NCBI RefSeq assembly: GCF_001586275.1
Contig: NZ_CP014545.1
Span: 1,390,501-1,454,500 of the forward strand
Direction of reading: 5' to 3'
Source of the DNA: Sphingorhabdus sp. M41
Lineage (GTDB): Bacteria; Pseudomonadota; Alphaproteobacteria; Sphingomonadales; Sphingomonadaceae
Length of the DNA stretch: 64,000 nt
The translations under genes and the position numbers were made by a program. Positions 22,147 through 35,249 of the stretch are shown here, piece after piece (positions within the stretch are counted from its first letter, which is position 1; every line of letters starts with the position of its first letter). The notes under the pieces were generated by a model. The model was not told the DNA's origin and did not search any database. It saw only the letters and a list, made by a program, of their open reading frames with translations.

Positions 22147-22537
22147 AAACATTGTTTTGAATGTAGCAATCGAATCGACAAAAATTAACGATTATAAACG
22201 CAGGTCAGCTGCGTTAAATTCGTTAGGGGTTTCCTGCCGATCACCGGTTTTTCAGGGCCTGTGTGGTGTGGATCACAGCGCCTGCTCAGACTCGATATAT
22301 TGATGCCGGATTATTTCTTGATCCTAGATCCCATTTTGGGGTGATGCACCGGGATGAGAGTTGGAATGTAAAAAAAGGTCTGGCCGATCAATTCTTGCAG
22401 GCATATTGTCGCAAGCATGCCGGAGGGATAGTTGGTGGAAGAGGTCAAAGGAAAGTTGAAGTAATTTAGATTTGGCTGGCCACATCGGCTAGAGCTCTGG
22501 GTCTCGGTTCGTCATGGGCATGAAACAGGAGGAATAT
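22147..22537. other. 391-bp non-coding stretch before the first haem-protein gene
   Basis: The tRNA is followed by a weak 6-bp hairpin (CAAAAC-ATT-GTTTTG, 22145-22159) that could stop transcription. Short open frames here lack ribosome sites and family resemblance. The last 15 bases hold the ribosome site AGGAGG (22527-22532) that supports a TTG start at 22538. I see no recognisable regulator site. Confidence 0.5.
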
Positions 22538-23977
22538 TTGAGCAAGGTTCAAACAGCGCTTGCTGTGACTGCCGTTGGAACGATGACTGCAATCGCGATT
22601 GGTGCGTTCGTCATCCACCCAAGTCCGGTCGAAGCCAATGTGGCTTTTGCCAGAAGCACCGGTGCTTCCTGCTCCGAGTGCCATTCCGATGCTTCGGATC
22701 CCATAACGAACGGACTGACCAGTGTCGGTATCGCGTATAGCCAGTGCATCTATAGCTCATCGTCAAGCCAGGGGGATTGCAACAGTCAGGTCCAAAACAG
22801 CCAGCGACCGGGAGGGGTGGCCACTCCGCAGTCGGTACCACTTCCATCATCAGCATATGGAAGTGCTCCGGTGAATGATGATCCGGCGGTATCTCTACCG
22901 AACCCGGACAGTGATGCCGCAAATGGCTCGGGAGGATTTTCCGGTCCCGGTCAGTCGCAAAACCCGCCCCAACCGCCACAAGAACCTGCCGGTACCGGCA
23001 ATCCAGAAGGATCACCTGTTCAGGCAGCGGAAGACAAGGCCTATGTGCCGCCATCGCGAGTAGAACCGCCTTTGCCGCAGTTACCGCCAACCCCGGTTCT
23101 CCTGCAGCAGGATTATCCGGATTGTCGCGAAGATCATCTGCATCTTCCCGACCCTCACGACAAAGCGAAGAATATCAATCAATGTACGACGCGGCTGGAT
23201 AATTATTACAGCAGCGTTTTGACCGACTATCGAAAACGCATGAATCAATATCAGGATGAAATTTCCCGGATTTATACGGATAAAGTGGCAGGAAAAATGG
23301 AATATTCTGCTGCCAGCAGAGACCGGTTCTACAAGGAGATGCGGCAGGAGCATGCAAACTCAGATCCGGACGGAAAAAATATGGCGATCTATCGGGCTGC
23401 AGAGCAACTCTATCATTTGGATCGCAATTACCTGAGCGATCGATATTGCTACAATACCGGATGTGGTGGCTATCCGGTCCCCTCCAATTACGGTTTCCTG
23501 AACATGGAAGGAGGCAGCGGCAACTCCGGCAAACAGGGCAAAACCTCCGGTAAGTCAGGAGGCGACAAGTCCTGTAAAAAATCCAGGGGCCGTGGCCAAT
23601 TGTTGGGCGGCATTTTTGGTGGAGTGGTCGGAGCCGTGGCCGGCCTTGACGATGTCGGCGTGTTGGTCGCCGGTGCCGTCGGTGCGGCGCTTGTTGGTGA
23701 AATCGCCTGCAAGTTGAGTCAGGATGAACAGAAGAAAGCCTCTGAAGCAACTTATGCTGTTGTCCAGCAGGAGACCGTCGGAGCAGTAGCCAATTGGAAA
23801 AGTCCGACCCGTGGCGGTGTGTCAGGGTCTTCTACCGTCACTGCGCTGAACACCGAGCCCAATGGTCGCAAATGCCTCACCATTACCGATGTTGCGATTA
23901 TCGATGGCGAAGAGACGCGCGTTTCCAAGCAAATGTGCCGCGGTGCTGGTCAATCTCAATATTCGATTACGGCTTGA
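22538..23977 (+). CDS. Exported single-haem protein fused to a 17-kDa-surface-antigen-like domain (haem-module paralogue 1)
   Basis: TTG at 22538 is chosen: AGGAGG lies five bases upstream, and from here the Cys/His positions equal those of paralogue 3 exactly. The 479 residues comprise a signal sequence ending VEANVAFA, the haem site CSECH (Cys45, Cys48, His49) and Cys70/Cys81 after a GxxYxxC motif. A Pro/Gln-rich linker runs over about 85-190, and a Tyr-rich helical region over about 190-310. A glycine zipper (GGIFGGVVGAVAG, about 354-390) and a C-terminal domain ending in CLTITDVAIIDGEET and KQMCRG follow; both resemble rickettsial 17-kDa antigen-type lipoproteins. No such fusion is known to me. 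Electron transfer or haem handling at the outer membrane is inference. Confidence 0.8.
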   Translation: MSKVQTALAVTAVGTMTAIAIGAFVIHPSPVEANVAFARSTGASCSECHSDASDPITNGLTSVGIAYSQCIYSSSSSQGDCNSQVQNSQRPGGVATPQSVPLPSSAYGSAPVNDDPAVSLPNPDSDAANGSGGFSGPGQSQNPPQPPQEPAGTGNPEGSPVQAAEDKAYVPPSRVEPPLPQLPPTPVLLQQDYPDCREDHLHLPDPHDKAKNINQCTTRLDNYYSSVLTDYRKRMNQYQDEISRIYTDKVAGKMEYSAASRDRFYKEMRQEHANSDPDGKNMAIYRAAEQLYHLDRNYLSDRYCYNTGCGGYPVPSNYGFLNMEGGSGNSGKQGKTSGKSGGDKSCKKSRGRGQLLGGIFGGVVGAVAGLDDVGVLVAGAVGAALVGEIACKLSQDEQKKASEATYAVVQQETVGAVANWKSPTRGGVSGSSTVTALNTEPNGRKCLTITDVAIIDGEETRVSKQMCRGAGQSQYSITA

Positions 23978-24323
23978 ACATGAAGTTGATCGCGAAACAT
24001 CAAGCTAGTCGGTGTTGGCGGGAAGACTATCGACTTGGTCTGTGAAAGATGTTCTGGCTGATCGCCTCGATCTGAAACGCAACATAATTCGCGCTGTACA
24101 TTATCAGTATCGGTGAAGACTGGATGAGCAGCTTTTGCTTTCAAACGGGACAAGGCATTTGACTTTTGCCTTCATGCTTATAGGCTGAAACCGTTGTTGA
24201 TTATTGATTGTAGAATCAACCGGAGTGGGGGCTCCCGATAAAACTCATCATATAGATGGGACAAAAACCCTGGATCGTAAGGCCTTTTTCGAAAGGTTAC
24301 CAAACGTCTCGGGGGGAACCGGA
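23978..24323. other. 346-bp spacer between haem-module paralogues 1 and 2
   Basis: There is no supported gene. TTGACT near 24158 followed by TATAGG could be part of a promoter for paralogue 2, but the spacing is poor. The in-frame extension of paralogue 2 upstream to 24204 has no signal-peptide character. It is treated as leader. Confidence 0.4.
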
Positions 24324-24950
24324 ATGAAGTTCGGACATAAATTAGCGACGTCCGTCGTAATGAGTTTTTTCGCAATCGCGATTGCCATCAACTATTTCCA
24401 ACCATCCGCGGTCAACGCCACGCCAGCCTATGCGACCGCTACCAGTTCGGGATGTGGAGCGTGTCATGTGGCAGGGGTCACCGCAAGCCGGTCTTCGGTC
24501 AATGGCTTCGGCCAGAGATATGCTCAATGCGGATATCAACTGAACTGTGCTCGGTCTCCGCAACCTCCTCAGGTCGTCCAACGACAAAACCCCTACAGTC
24601 CTCCACCGGGCAATTATGTACCGCCAAACGCTTCCGCGGGTTTCCAGCCTGGAAAAATCTGGCTGGTACAATTGCGCGAGAGCACTGGAAAATCTGCTGA
24701 CGTGATCTGGAAGTTCCGTCCCAATACAAATGTGGTTGATGCCACGATGTATATTGATGGCAAACATCTCGATGATATTTTGACTTATGAAGGATATCGA
24801 AACGGGGCCGTAAGTTTTTTCAGCGCCAAATTGCAGATGCGATATACCGGTATTCCTTCAGCCGACACTAATCACATATTTAACGGAACCGTTGCCGGTG
24901 CCAATTTCGGCCAAGGCGATAGCTGGACCGCATCGATCTGGGAAGATTGA
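24324..24950 (+). CDS. Exported single-haem protein with a conserved C-terminal beta domain (haem-module paralogue 2)
   Basis: The start at 24324 begins a signal sequence like those of its neighbours; the 40 codons upstream do not. The 208 residues have haem site CGACH (Cys44, Cys47, His48) and the GxxYxxC motif GQRYAQC (Cys69), with Cys75 beyond. A short Pro-rich linker (about 78-102) leads to a C-terminal domain of about 100 residues. That domain shares W, RPxTN, DA, Y and YRNG landmarks with paralogue 3. Only one haem site and no clear Met ligand are visible. The function is unknown. Confidence 0.8.
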   Translation: MKFGHKLATSVVMSFFAIAIAINYFQPSAVNATPAYATATSSGCGACHVAGVTASRSSVNGFGQRYAQCGYQLNCARSPQPPQVVQRQNPYSPPPGNYVPPNASAGFQPGKIWLVQLRESTGKSADVIWKFRPNTNVVDATMYIDGKHLDDILTYEGYRNGAVSFFSAKLQMRYTGIPSADTNHIFNGTVAGANFGQGDSWTASIWED

Positions 24951-24992
24951 GCGATGGACCGGAAAATAAGTTTAAGGGAACGGGGAGCGGGC

Positions 24993-25907
24993 ATGAAAAA
25001 ATCAACGAAACCATTAGCAATCGCAACAGCAGGATCAATTCTGACTCTTGCCTATGGCGCAAGTTTTCTGATGCCGGCACCAGTTGAAGCGAATATAGGT
25101 TTCGCTAGGAGTTCCGGCCTGTCTTGTTCGGAATGTCACGCCACGCCTTCCAATCCCACGAAACAGGCGCTGACGCTGACTGGCCGCCGTTTCAAAAACT
25201 GCGTATATAGTCCGAATCCCGGAACCGTGGATTGCAACACTCAGGCCGTTTCCGGTTCGAATAATGCCAAGGGTACAGGCAATAATGCGGTCTACGGACA
25301 GCCTGTTGCTGCGCCTTATCCTGTCGCCAATCCGGGATACCAGCAACCAGTGAATCCCGGCTACCTGCAACCTGGCAATCCGGGCTATGTTCAAACACCC
25401 CAAGGGGGATATCCCGGTGGTACGCGACCGGTGACCGCACCGCCAGCGCCGCAAAAGAAAAGCAATGGCGTCCGTGATTTCCTGTTGGGGCTATTGGGAG
25501 CACCTGCCGCCACAACCCAAAATCCTTCTACGCCTGGATACCGGCCGCCAACAAATTATGTTCAGCCGAGACCCAACTACACCGCACCGGCGGGAGGCTA
25601 TGATCCAGGTCAGAGATGGATCATTGTTGAGCGACTGGGCAATGGACGGGTATTGGATTCCACCTGGCGCAGACGTCCCGGCACCAATTATTTTGATGCC
25701 GTCTTCATGGATAGTCTCAATGGATCCCAGAGCAATGACGTGGTCATTTATGAACAGTTTCGCAACGGCCAGATCAATTTTCGGCGTCAGAGCACTGGAA
25801 CCGTTTACAAGGGCAATCTGACTCCGGATGGCAGGATGGTCCTTGGTGGAACAACCAATAAAAATGCTGCTTATCTGACCTGGACCGGCACGCAGTTCGA
25901 TAGATAA
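24993..25907 (+). CDS. Exported single-haem protein with NPGY-repeat linker and conserved C-terminal beta domain (haem-module paralogue 3)
   Basis: ATG at 24993 follows GGGGAGCGGGC and is preferred over the ATG at 24954. The 304 residues have a signal sequence ending VEANIGFA, haem site CSECH (Cys45, Cys48, His49), GRRFKNC (Cys70) and Cys81. A linker carries three NPGYxQP repeats (residues 113-136) and further Pro/Gly/Tyr-rich sequence to about 200. The last 100 residues match the C-terminal domain of paralogue 2. It starts 42 bp after paralogue 2 ends and is probably cotranscribed with it. The role is unknown; a surface-exposed redox or haem-binding protein is inference. Confidence 0.8.
   Translation: MKKSTKPLAIATAGSILTLAYGASFLMPAPVEANIGFARSSGLSCSECHATPSNPTKQALTLTGRRFKNCVYSPNPGTVDCNTQAVSGSNNAKGTGNNAVYGQPVAAPYPVANPGYQQPVNPGYLQPGNPGYVQTPQGGYPGGTRPVTAPPAPQKKSNGVRDFLLGLLGAPAATTQNPSTPGYRPPTNYVQPRPNYTAPAGGYDPGQRWIIVERLGNGRVLDSTWRRRPGTNYFDAVFMDSLNGSQSNDVVIYEQFRNGQINFRRQSTGTVYKGNLTPDGRMVLGGTTNKNAAYLTWTGTQFDR
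25329..25400 (+). repeat. Three tandem 24-bp coding repeats (NPGYxQPx)
   Basis: Codons 113-136 of paralogue 3 encode three consecutive octapeptides, NPGYQQPV, NPGYLQPG and NPGYVQTP. The DNA copies have diverged at third positions, so the repeat is held at protein level and is not a recent slippage product. Confidence 0.85.
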
Positions 25908-26192: not shown

Positions 26193-28808
26193 TTAGAAGT
26201 CTTTCTTCAGCGTCAAGGCCCAGGTCCGGGGCAAGCCGGGTGCTCCCGAAATGGTGCCGGGGCTGCCAAACTGCTCGTACAGAGAAGTGAAATAATATTT
26301 ATCGAACAGGTTTTGCACTTCCAGACTGACTGACCAAGGGCTGTCGCTATCCTGTTTCCAGGTCAGGCGAGCATTGCTTAGAAATTGTGCATCAATCCGG
26401 TTGGTAGCGATAACATTCGGTAGTGCCCCTCCACCAGCGGGAGCCGATACGCCGGGGACGAACGGGGTGGTGGCTGGCGGAACACCTGCAGGTGATGTAG
26501 CGACAGAAACCGCATCATAGTTCAGGGCTTCGGTATAGACGTGGCTCTGATACGATCCGTCGACGCGGGCTGACAATGTACCGCCAGCGACATCTTCGAA
26601 GTCATATTGGACGCCAAAGCTCCATTTCCATTTGGGCGTATAGGGTGTGACCATATCGAGTGTGACGGCCGTCCCAGCACCCAGTTCCTTATATTTAAAG
26701 TCAAGATAGCTCAACGCGCCGTCAATCGAGAGGCCGTGAACCGGGGTCAGCAGGGTTTCAATTTCGAAACCTTTGACCTCGGCCTTGCCGACATTATTGG
26801 GTTGCAGGCACGGAGATCCCGGACAAGCTGATAATGTCAGAATGATATTCTTGTAATCGTTGAAAAAAGCCGCCGCGTTGATCCGGACATCACCGCCAGC
26901 AAAGTCAGACTTGAAGCCGATTTCATAGGCAACCAGCTCTTCCGGTTGGAATTGCTTGATCTGGTTACATGGTGCAATGACACCCGGCGGGAGATCCTCG
27001 CACTCGCCGGCGGACGGACCGAAAAAGGGCCGCGGGTTAAATCCACCAGCACGATAGCCAGTCGAGACCTGACCATAGAATAACAGTTCGTCGGAAAAGC
27101 GGTAATCAAGAGCCACGCGCCAATCGATACGGTTATCCTTGAAAGTTGGCGGAGTGACATCGTTGAGACCCAGCAACAGACAATTTGGTTCATTGCCAAT
27201 GCCGACCGGCCCTGCTGTCGGTGCACCAAGGAAGAACGCACAGGGGGCCGGTCCCGGAACCGTCAAGTCGGGATTGCGACGGAAGAACGTATAGCTCTTC
27301 TCATCCCATGATTGCCGAATGCCCGCAGTGATATTGAAGGCGTCACTGACCTGGAAGGTGCCATTGGCGAACAATGCATAATTTTTCGCAGGCGTCGGGT
27401 CAGGTCCGTGAATGAAATCCAGGCCGGCATAGTTAAGGTCGACCCGGGCCGTCAGAGTGCCGTCGCGTTCGAAATAAAAGCCGCCGACGGTGAAATCGAG
27501 CAAGTCATTGAACGCCGTACCCGACAGGCGCAATTCTGTGCTCCACTGTTCGTTCTTCAGTTCCTGCTGTAGCTGCTGGTTTGAAACCGGTGTATTGTCG
27601 ACATCCTGTGACCAGTCAGATGTATATTCGCGCCAGGCGTTGATCGATTTGAGCGCCAATGTATCGGACAGTTCGATGTCGATGGTTGCCGAGATGCCGT
27701 AATTGTCGAGATGCGAATGCGGATCGAAAATTACCGGCTTATATGGTGCCTGTGTCGTTGGTGTCCGGACATCGGCGAAGGTTGCGTAGGAGACATATCT
27801 TGGATCATAGCCGGTCAGATTGTCACAGCTGTTCACGCCCGAGGGTACGAAAGCGCAATTGATCGGAATGGCAGCGCCGGTGTTGGTATTGGCAAGCCAG
27901 GGTATCCCGTCCGACGTTGTCGCTGCATGATTGCCGTATATCAATACGGATGCCCCGGCTTCGGAGCGATCACGGGAATAGTCGCCCGCGATATTCACTT
28001 CAACACGATCGCTTGGCACCCAGCGCAGCGCGAGCTTGCCGGCTGCATAGCTGGTGCCGCCCAAGGTGCCGAGTTCGGCGTCAGGGCCAACCGACTGGCT
28101 GGGGACGCCTGACCCGGGATGGGTAATTCCGTAATCGAGCCGTTTTACATGGCCGTCACGATTCTTGGTTGCACCGGAAATGCGGGCAAACAGATTGTCG
28201 CTAATGGCAAAGTCGGCAAAACCCCGAACATCAATCCGATTGAACGAGCCATAAGTGGCCGAGATCGAACCGCGGCCATCACCTTTCGGCTTGGTGGAGA
28301 AAAGCTTGATCGCTCCGCCGATTGAATTGCGACCAGCGAGCGTGCCTTGCGGACCGCGCAGAACTTCGATGCGATCGAGATCCATCAGGTCGAGCAAGGA
28401 ACCGGTCAGCGTCGGAATATAGACGTCGTCGACATAGATGCCGACGCCCGGTTCTAGGGCAAAGTTGAAATCGGTCTGACCAACGCCGCGGATAAAGGCG
28501 ATAAGGCCGTTACCATTTTGCTGCCCTTGCGGGGTTAGCGTTACATTTGGTGCCTGTTTCGCAACATCTTCGACCCCGGTCTGGCCGCGGGCTTCCAGCA
28601 TATCAGAATTTATGGCTGTAATCGCAAGCGGCGTATCCTGCAGATTCTGCTCGCGAAATTGCGCTGTCACGACGATTATATTATTGCCATTTTCGCCATC
28701 GGCCTGCTCGCCAGATGATGATTGATCCTGCGCATATGCAGGTGTTGCTGCGGCCAAGATTGCCCAAATACTGGCACTGGCCAAGCTCGATTTTATAAGA
28801 TTGTTCAC
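26193..28808 (-). CDS. TonB-dependent outer-membrane receptor
   Basis: This 871-residue protein starts at GTG 28806-28808, preceded by GGGAGGGA. It has a signal peptide ending ATPAYAQD, a TonB box in NIIVVTAQFREQ, a plug domain with DRIEVLRGPQGTLAGRNSIG and a 22-strand barrel. It closes with the usual aromatic end ALTLKKDF. The type is the large sphingomonad group often tied to uptake of plant or aromatic compounds. No substrate enzymes flank it, so the ligand is unknown. It has its own strong terminator and a 428-bp upstream region. Confidence 0.95.
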   Translation of the reverse strand: MNNLIKSSLASASIWAILAAATPAYAQDQSSSGEQADGENGNNIIVVTAQFREQNLQDTPLAITAINSDMLEARGQTGVEDVAKQAPNVTLTPQGQQNGNGLIAFIRGVGQTDFNFALEPGVGIYVDDVYIPTLTGSLLDLMDLDRIEVLRGPQGTLAGRNSIGGAIKLFSTKPKGDGRGSISATYGSFNRIDVRGFADFAISDNLFARISGATKNRDGHVKRLDYGITHPGSGVPSQSVGPDAELGTLGGTSYAAGKLALRWVPSDRVEVNIAGDYSRDRSEAGASVLIYGNHAATTSDGIPWLANTNTGAAIPINCAFVPSGVNSCDNLTGYDPRYVSYATFADVRTPTTQAPYKPVIFDPHSHLDNYGISATIDIELSDTLALKSINAWREYTSDWSQDVDNTPVSNQQLQQELKNEQWSTELRLSGTAFNDLLDFTVGGFYFERDGTLTARVDLNYAGLDFIHGPDPTPAKNYALFANGTFQVSDAFNITAGIRQSWDEKSYTFFRRNPDLTVPGPAPCAFFLGAPTAGPVGIGNEPNCLLLGLNDVTPPTFKDNRIDWRVALDYRFSDELLFYGQVSTGYRAGGFNPRPFFGPSAGECEDLPPGVIAPCNQIKQFQPEELVAYEIGFKSDFAGGDVRINAAAFFNDYKNIILTLSACPGSPCLQPNNVGKAEVKGFEIETLLTPVHGLSIDGALSYLDFKYKELGAGTAVTLDMVTPYTPKWKWSFGVQYDFEDVAGGTLSARVDGSYQSHVYTEALNYDAVSVATSPAGVPPATTPFVPGVSAPAGGGALPNVIATNRIDAQFLSNARLTWKQDSDSPWSVSLEVQNLFDKYYFTSLYEQFGSPGTISGAPGLPRTWALTLKKDF

Positions 28809-33707: not shown

Positions 33708-35249
33708 TTGAACATCACTCCCGAAACCGCCGCATTCCCGCTCGACCATCTGGCGATAGGCAAGAATCCGGATGCAAGCGCTCTCGTCACGCGTTCGGGG
33801 ACTCTTAGCTACAAGATGTTAAATCATCGTGTCGGCTTGCTGGCGGCATGGCTGCAAGGGCAGGGCTTGGCCAGGGGTGACAGGATAGCGACATGGCTGT
33901 CCAAGACCGAACTGGCTTGCGTCATGCCGCTGGCGGCGGCCCGGGCAGGCCTGGTCCACGTGCCGGTCAATCCCTTGCTCAAGCAGGCGCAGGTTGCGCA
34001 TATTATGGCCGATAGCGGCGCCAAACTGCTGATCAGCAATTCCGGGCGTCTGAAAACTCTCGAAGACAGCCGCAAACAGGATTGTGAATTGTTCGAGGAC
34101 AAGGCTGTTGAGACTTTTCTGGAATCCGTCAAAATATCAATGGAGCCCAGTGCGGAATCCACCGACACCAATGATCTGGCCGCAATCCTGTACACCAGCG
34201 GGTCTACGGGCCGCCCGAAAGGGGTCATGCTCAGCCATGCCAATCTGACGCTGGGCGCGCTCAGCGTGGCCGAATATCTGAAGCTTTCAGCCAACGACCG
34301 CACGATATGCGTGTTGCCGTTGAGCTTTGACTATGGCCAGAACCAGTTGCTCTCGACATGGGCTGTTGGCGGATGCGCAGTGCCGATGGATTATCTTACT
34401 CCGCGGGATGTCCTGAAGGCCTGCGCTCGCGAACAGATCACAACTTTAGCGGCGGTACCACCACTGTGGGTGCAACTGGTGGAGCATGAATGGCCGGAAG
34501 AAGCGGTCGCCTCGATGCGGCGGCTGACCAACAGCGGTGGTGCACTGACCCCGACATTGGTCAAGCAGTTGCGGGGAATATTCGGTTCCGGAACCGACAT
34601 CTATGCAATGTACGGCCTGACCGAGGCTTTCCGTTCAACCTATCTTGATCCCGCTCTGATCGATGATAATCCGACCAGCATGGGGACCGCAATCCCTTAT
34701 GCCGAAATATTGGTGGTGGATGAAACGGGGACTGTCGCCGGGGCGGATCAACCCGGAGAACTGGTCCATTGCGGGCCGCTCGTTGCGCAGGGTTACTGGA
34801 ATGATCCCGAGCGGACTGCGCAGAGATTCAAAAGTGCCCCGGAAGCGTCAAGATATGCTGGAACCGCTGTTTTCTCCGGCGATACGGTGAAGCGCGGCGA
34901 TGACGGTCTGCTCTATTTCGTCGGTCGAGACGATGCGATGATCAAGAGCTCTGGCAACCGGATCAGTCCGACCGAGATTGAGGAAATAGCAGTGGAATCG
35001 GGGATGGTAGCGGAAGCGGTTGCCCTGGGCGTCCCTGATGAACGACTGGGCCATGCCATCAGATTGTTTGTCCGACCGGTTGAACAGGGGGCGGAAACTT
35101 CAGCGGTTGCAGAGCAGCTGGCAAAATATCTAAAGCAGAATTTACCGAATTTTATGCACCCGCGGGATATCATTCTGCTTTCGGAATTTCCCAAAAACCC
35201 CAATGGAAAGCTGGACCGCACCGCATTGGCCAGCATGGATATCGAATGA
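33708..35249 (+). CDS. Acyl-CoA ligase (AMP-forming), exosortase A system-associated (TIGR03098-type)
   Basis: The start is TTG at 33708, since ATAGG lies nearby and no ATG fits the family start. The 513-residue adenylating enzyme has the P-loop LYTSGSTGRPKGVMLSHANL (161-180), MYGLTEAFRSTY, the hinge KSSGNRISPTEIEE and the catalytic lysine Lys501 in NPNGKLDRT. It should activate an unknown acid and load it on the carrier protein encoded across the 51-bp divergent gap. Its stop overlaps the decarboxylase start by four bases (ATGA). Confidence 0.93.
   Translation: MNITPETAAFPLDHLAIGKNPDASALVTRSGTLSYKMLNHRVGLLAAWLQGQGLARGDRIATWLSKTELACVMPLAAARAGLVHVPVNPLLKQAQVAHIMADSGAKLLISNSGRLKTLEDSRKQDCELFEDKAVETFLESVKISMEPSAESTDTNDLAAILYTSGSTGRPKGVMLSHANLTLGALSVAEYLKLSANDRTICVLPLSFDYGQNQLLSTWAVGGCAVPMDYLTPRDVLKACAREQITTLAAVPPLWVQLVEHEWPEEAVASMRRLTNSGGALTPTLVKQLRGIFGSGTDIYAMYGLTEAFRSTYLDPALIDDNPTSMGTAIPYAEILVVDETGTVAGADQPGELVHCGPLVAQGYWNDPERTAQRFKSAPEASRYAGTAVFSGDTVKRGDDGLLYFVGRDDAMIKSSGNRISPTEIEEIAVESGMVAEAVALGVPDERLGHAIRLFVRPVEQGAETSAVAEQLAKYLKQNLPNFMHPRDIILLSEFPKNPNGKLDRTALASMDIE

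Follow-up and report, generated by a model that had tools for sequence, protein, structure and literature searches.

What are three neighbouring genes for exported-type proteins, each with one CxxCH haem-binding motif close behind its leader, doing side by side in the chromosome of Sphingorhabdus sp. M41? They occupy positions 22538 to 25907 of a stretch of 64,000 nucleotides (NZ_CP014545.1, positions 1,390,501 to 1,454,500), here called the window, whose numbering we use unless stated otherwise, and we call their products P1, P2 and P3. An initial annotation had described a tandem set built on one single-haem module and had thought of a surface redox or haem-handling system. We found that P1-P3 belong to a coherent family, a variant of the Cyc2-type cytochrome unit with limited spread in the searched genomes and a putative function. 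As to that function, we give an even chance to the idea that a disulfide-stapled, swappable haem-c module of Cyc2-type ancestry would provide envelope proteins with a haem for redox reactions or ligand binding.

Three proteins on one haem module

The three exported-type open reading frames (ORFs) with their shared haem module are confirmed to the residue, all on the plus strand. P1 (22538..23977, 479 amino acids) starts with a TTG codon, 5 bases behind the ribosome-binding-like site AGGAGG (22527..22532), and consists of a leader, the haem module, a Pro/Ser-rich linker and a conserved C-terminal part, hereafter C-part (residues 166-479, 23033..23974), with predicted helices, a Gly-rich stretch and a beta-rich end. 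A KQE-type reading directly 5' of the P1 start recurs in P1 orthologues, as is expected of a conserved Shine-Dalgarno sequence and TTG start. In P2 (24324..24950, 208 amino acids), which has a relative in the congener G203, leader and module are followed by a short linker and a barrel domain. P3 (24993..25907, 304 amino acids; an upstream ATG lies in frame at 24954) has a leader, the module, a Pro/Asn/Gly-rich linker and again a barrel domain. The end of P1 and P2 are separated by 346 bases, P2 and P3 by 42.

The haem-binding motifs read CSECH in P1 (residues 45-49, 22670..22684), CGACH in P2 (residues 44-48, 24453..24467) and CSECH in P3 (residues 45-49, 25125..25139). In all three proteins a Cys follows 21 residues past the haem His and then one further Cys, giving the pairs C70 and C81 in P1 (22745..22780, Tyr72 between them), C69 and C75 in P2 (24528..24548) and C70 and C81 in P3 (25200..25235). 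P2 has exactly four Cys (44, 47, 69, 75), and so has P3 (45, 48, 70, 81), while P1 adds eight more in its C-part to the same four (45, 48, 70, 81). Because P2 and P3 hold no Cys beyond the four, a disulfide between the two extra Cys is the simple reading, and the pair probably forms one. All residues named by the initial annotation are in place, as are the signal-like N-termini, whose signal peptides were assigned by eye without a predictor. Among stop-to-stop frames of at least 150 amino acids in the window, CxxCH occurs on the plus strand only in P1-P3 and on the minus strand in two more, which are counted as frames irrespective of gene status.

The N-termini form one family by alignment, as proposed, and their likeness is not due to chance. 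BLAST of the N-terminal 90 residues (nominal database of 1 million letters) gave 4e-23 for P1-P3, 2e-5 for P1-P2 and 3e-4 for P2-P3. Local alignment of the mature modules scored 143, 65 and 56 for the same pairs, values that were reached by 0/2000, 0/2000 and 2/2000 shuffles, respectively. A profile of the 11 intact modules of the genus (A1; the rows come from 7 genomes and are not independent) describes a unit of about 55 residues with Cys45, Cys48, His49, Cys70 and Tyr72 invariant. Two Cys follow the CxxCH in every one of these modules, at +21/+32 or +21/+27, and they are kept together with the CxxCH in copies that are as little as 30% identical to P1.

Against Pfam and NCBIfam, P1-P3 gave no match above the curated cut-offs, and P1 had no Pfam hit at E <= 1. 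The P3 sequence found no convincing match in the PDB and none in a plasmid collection, and the viral fold library gave no match at E <= 1e-3. The genome does hold the machinery expected behind a c-type CxxCH: two cytochrome c assembly genes (1121542-1122069 and 1123093-1123713 in genome numbering) exceed the PF01578 cut-off and lie about 0.29 Mb from P1-P3. Their presence makes periplasmic haem attachment likely. Their frame lengths of 289 and 651 amino acids presumably correspond to CcmC and CcmF.

Kinship with Cyc2-like cytochrome-porins

The initial annotation had been reminded of cytochromes with the pattern FARQTGxxCxxCH...LTPFGRxFK. These are the Cyc2-like cytochrome-porins, and judged by sequence the module is homologous to their cytochrome unit, beyond the CxxCH alone. 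The hhalign comparison of the genus modules with 16 Cyc2-like modules (those of 18 loci that fit the search pattern) gave a score of 51.1 and a probability of 97%. Two hundred column shuffles that preserve the CxxCH had a mean score of 22.6 (sd 2.3, maximum 36.4), one of them still reaching 93.6% probability. Furthermore, a search of this genome with a single Cyc2-like protein as query picks up P2 (E 6e-5). The Tyr of GY or CxY is present in 11/11 genus modules and in 29/30 Cyc2-like ones, and the extra Cys pair sets the two groups apart, as none of the 30 Cyc2-like modules has a Cys within 45 residues past the CxxCH. Nine of these 30, which share one Met, come from Rhodanobacteraceae, so that these rows are not independent either.

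The Cyc2-like ORFs were recognised by start and length, with barrels judged by eye and no proven Cyc2 in the comparison. They emerged from three profile A1 searches. Among 397 family genomes, 22 match at E <= 0.01, namely three of the genus, eight others (E <= 3e-5, ORFs of 453-551 amino acids with a Cyc2-like start) and 11 at E 0.002-0.01 that we dropped because what was read of them is not Cyc2-like; CxxCH frames were read in L077, L078 and L081 (L numbers denote loci, G numbers genomes), and L078 resembles an ordinary small c-type cytochrome. Among 296 order genomes, 12 match at E <= 0.001: two of the genus, eight Cyc2-like (one a 175-amino-acid frame; three of the genomes overlap with the family search) and two dropped as not Cyc2-like (L093, L094). 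The nine matches among 289 class genomes are this genome and eight Cyc2-like ones at E <= 1e-3. One locus, L066, was judged Cyc2-like by its module only, and a second weak match in G134 (L085) is an 83-amino-acid frame with a Cyc2-like start.

A scan of genome contigs by two short patterns, from which absence elsewhere does not follow, was sorted with profile A2. It confirmed 16/113 stretches, comprising six module genes of the group, nine Rhodanobacteraceae Cyc2-like genes and L118, which was dropped as a 17-residue frame; an earlier contig scan with P3 had found no relative. The nine (L109-L117) come from Luteibacter, Dyella, Rhodanobacter and one further Rhodanobacteraceae genome. Luteibacter, Dyella and Rhodanobacter are heterotrophs.

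Among the genomes searched, a single genus yielded the porin-free form, which warns against reading iron oxidation from a Cyc2-like haem context alone. Within this genus the module is intact in 7/32 genomes (11 copies), decayed in P1 in 4/32 and not found in 21/32, some of whose assemblies are incomplete; in the 24 best assemblies, six have a module match, intact or decayed.

C-terminal domains, decay and gene neighbourhood

Three different long C-terminal parts had been proposed, but there are two kinds, since the last ~100 residues of P2 (domain at 24642..24947) and P3 are common to both (36% identity, E 2.7e-13). Fusion to variable C-termini does recur in G203, Sphingomonadales bacterium EhC05. 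There, a P2-like gene adjoins a P3-like gene whose product contains hemopexin repeats (PF00045, 1.5e-33). SH3 (4.9e-7) and ricin-type lectin (RicinB, 1e-25) domains are fused to a third copy of the module, encoded elsewhere in the genome. L006 (1498-3108) unites the haem module, a barrel and hemopexin repeats within a single bacterial protein. PMC4945805, cited here in part, contains the strain name EhC05 and deals with isolates from an Emiliania huxleyi culture.

For the end of P3 (residues 203-304, 25599..25904) an eight-stranded meander barrel is predicted, with pLDDT of 75-89 by ten-residue block and lower values (66, 60) in the closing blocks. The whole model has a mean pLDDT of 50.9 and a pTM of 0.39, with 27-48 over module and linker. 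Foldseek returned designed barrels first, the only ones at E <= 1e-3, followed by the Cap15 barrel, lipocalins and others with TM scores by target length of about 0.3-0.55; nitrobindin came at rank 21 and nitrophorin at rank 36 (E 0.05-0.09). The barrel thus appears calycin-like by fold likeness only; a profile of it gave no convincing sequence match in the PDB. A search of 199 family genomes found the domain in this one alone, although G203, which has the barrel, gave no row there.

The P1 C-part has its own history. P1 finds a match in 32/32 genus genomes (in G258 only parts of the last 160 residues), and the C-part reaches E <= 1e-10 in 45/249 family genomes; five of these belong to the genus, and the remainder are mostly short matches to the end of the C-part. 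In 30 genus genomes it is preceded by an intact haem module in six, a decayed one in four, a caspase-like domain in five, a linker remnant in one and a plain leader in 14. The C-part tree covers these 30 of 32 genomes (G250 and G258 lack a full locus) with a midpoint root for drawing only. Its ten haem-type sequences form one group (87/83, short of the starred level), beside the linker and caspase versions. The initial annotation had made its family depend on a CxxCH conserved in orthologues, which is true of the intact P1 orthologues only; the motif is gone in the four decayed members among the ten of the haem clade, each of which has lost the CxxCH His along with the two extra Cys and retains about 80% identity to P1 in the C-part. 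The three changes to the decayed state on the tree are read as losses because leader and module remnants are still there. The caspase-like, haem and plain-leader forms of P1 amount to a traceable N-terminal domain replacement with subsequent decay. As for the caspase-like form, L038 (1495-3663) has the C-part behind a Peptidase_C14 match of 1e-32, and the same domain was seen by eye in L035, L051, L052 and L054, with the Cys behind LDA replaced by Ser in L035. Outside the genus, 8/11 loci read contain P1-type proteins (L141, L142 and L161 were left out), and in front of the C-part of these eight we saw neither CxxCH nor a caspase-like domain.

Is the tandem set a system, as the initial annotation had thought possible? 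The neighbourhood does not bear this out. The P2-P3 pair exists in only 2/32 genus genomes, at different places. P1 has it as a neighbour here, but a comparison of seven congener P1 loci revealed no second case, so that the idea of a conserved three-gene system was dropped; as to a recurrence of tandem sets with variable C-termini, the G203 pair with its hemopexin-bearing member is what was found. The order ferredoxin-reductase-like gene, tRNA-Met, P1, trxB is kept with insertions in six congener loci (L024, L055-L059), and L060 has only P1 and trxB. What lies between tRNA-Met and P1 varies: by eye, there is a GGDEF-like gene in L056 (3407-6600) and an old-yellow-enzyme-like gene in L059 (7450-10200), and in L058 the interval measures only about 0.8 kb. 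The absence of an adjacent oxidase or maturation gene, noted before, was seen again in the ORFs between 17 and 31 kb and the eight scanned neighbours. P3 adjoins a TonB-dependent receptor gene (26193-28808) whose best two NCBIfam matches, siderophore and hemin receptor families, are both below cut-off; such a receptor is also found beside P1 in L055 and L056 and is missing from the loci compared in G089, G254, G256, G260 and G262. The promoter scan gave 3 sites against 4.2 expected, and the GC profile has no sharp island at P2-P3. Further downstream, 33708-35249 encodes an exosortase A system-type acyl-CoA ligase (TIGR03098, 639 bits, cut-off 592), and the gene run behind it may be an exosortase A exopolysaccharide locus, one gene having been scanned.

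Possible roles and comparison with known systems

In the reading that we prefer, P1-P3 would be exported carriers of one c-type haem module that has its ancestry in common with the Cyc2-like cytochrome unit. Ccm would attach the haem in the periplasm, the disulfide of the extra Cys would take over the stabilising job of the Cyc2 barrel, and the module would act as a soluble or tethered monohaem unit. Linkers rich in Pro, Gly and Asn would join it to a calycin-like barrel, the P1 C-part, hemopexin repeats or SH3 plus ricin lectin, and the C-terminal domain would bring the haem to a target in the envelope or outside the cell, a delivery that the flexible linkers and binding-type domains suggest. 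There, the haem might pass single electrons or bind a small ligand (NO, peroxide). Such chemistry is suggested by the lack of a conserved distal ligand, as no His or Met downstream of the CxxCH is common to all genus modules, nor to all Cyc2-like ones. One may speculate further that a single genus mounts a free-standing Cyc2-type haem cassette on unrelated envelope-binding domains, placing an open-coordination haem where the partner binds, an idea that we put forward tentatively and believe to be less probable than its opposite; among the matches listed in the literature there was no counterpart to such a modular haem-targeting scheme.

Several findings weigh against the module as a working, Cyc2-derived haem unit. 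Profile A1 also draws weak matches among c-type cytochromes in the PDB: a c555 trimer reaches 1.4e-6 when three weak segments are added up, and a multihaem cytochrome (6qvm) is matched at its start (SPVLATEQYAKDTGKNCSYCH) at 3.5e-5. The module context may thus be wider than Cyc2. Structure prediction handles the module poorly, with block pLDDT of 30-37 in P3 and 26-40 in P1. No conserved redox partner gene was seen, partner genes of the Cyc2 pathway not having been searched for. The loss of the CxxCH from 4/10 haem-clade P1 orthologues, which the C-part tree places in at least three separate events, makes the module dispensable there and argues against an essential role. It also keeps alive the view that the module is a vestigial or lineage-specific leader, a domain-swap remnant that now serves mainly for export and as linker, with a weakly constrained haem site. 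The plain leaders in 14/30 genomes and G256, whose module has the CxxCH without the Gly and Tyr of GxxY (LDRAHGEC), fit this view, whereas the full set of CxxCH and extra Cys in all 11 intact copies does not. Neither do the two closest intact pairs, with module dN of 0.10 and 0.11 at dS of 1.05 and 1.07, about a tenth, even if many pairs have a nearly saturated dS and dN < dS holds for the linker as well. Taken together, we consider a vestigial leader unlikely, if well worth keeping in mind.

The TonB-dependent receptor beside P3, the hemopexin repeats in G203 and the haem-binding calycins nitrobindin and nitrophorin among the weaker fold matches could instead speak for haem handling or iron acquisition, in which the proteins would capture, store or present haem or iron. 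However, the receptor does not accompany P1 in five of the compared genomes, hemopexin repeats need not bind haem, and a CxxCH implies covalent haem, unsuited to release; haem handling is therefore distinctly improbable to us. A module without any haem, with the four Cys forming two disulfides or a metal site and the CxxCH coincidental, has nothing direct in its favour apart from the poor modelling. Proteins related to the module that share its CxxCH context are cytochromes according to the sections of PMC8406198 drawn on here, and the genome has cytochrome c assembly genes, so that we regard this as very improbable. Least probable of all we find a surface oxidase of Fe(II) or another metal, in effect a Cyc2 without its porin: the homology of the module invites it, but electrons would have no porin through which to cross the outer membrane, the Cyc2 signatures are incomplete, and one Cyc2-like query found no porin form in this genome.

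How, then, does the preferred haem-carrier reading compare with known systems? Among eight-stranded calycin-like barrels (lipocalins, nitrobindin, the NHBA C-terminal domain, the Cap15 barrel), the likeness lies in the meander predicted for P3. Fungal hybrid B haem peroxidases, according to the part of PMC5571214 cited here, also combine a haem unit and a binding module in one protein, but are fungal and have a peroxidase-catalase haem domain. In P1 relatives, the Gly-rich stretch of the C-part resembles glycine-zipper or 17 kDa surface-antigen-like proteins (Gly-zipper_Omp 7e-4, Rick_17kDa_Anti 0.03, all below Pfam cut-offs). We know of no relation between the haem domain of the hybrid B peroxidases and the P1-P3 module, and the matches listed in the open-licence literature included no counterpart to the module fusions.

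The closest comparison is with Cyc2. In the sections of PMC8406198 used here (Keffer and co-workers; PMC10654088, likewise used in part, is general background), Cyc2 is defined by AXPXFAR[Q/K][T/Y], CXXCH, PXL and a 16-stranded porin and is proposed as an iron-oxidation marker; the Mariprofundus protein has a potential of 208 mV, and the cytochrome part was not obtained on expression alone. P1-P3 agree with Cyc2-like proteins in the leader (by eye), in the single CxxCH of an exported-type protein within an Axxx(F/Y)AxxTGxxCxxCH-like context, and in L(T/N)xxGxx(F/Y) with a Tyr shortly after. The upstream signature is incomplete, P1 reading ANVAFARST, P2 ATPAYATAT and P3 ANIGFARSS at the same spacing as in Cyc2-like ORFs, with P2 closest because the Pro of AXP is kept there and missing in P1 and P3. 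The PXL four residues past the CXXCH is absent, and so is the porin of at least 365 residues: P2 has 208 residues in total, P3 has 304 with one ~100-residue eight-stranded domain, and the low-confidence model of the C-part of P1 (479 residues) has helices and few strands. Since porin and PXL are missing and the upstream signature is incomplete, P1-P3 are, on the strength of their sequences, relatives of the Cyc2 cytochrome unit and not Cyc2 members. If the preferred reading is right, the P1-P3 module would offer a compact model of haem chemistry in Cyc2, and its porin-free form, with the Cys pair and other C-terminal domains that Cyc2-like proteins do not have, would show how a Cyc2-type unit can stand alone.

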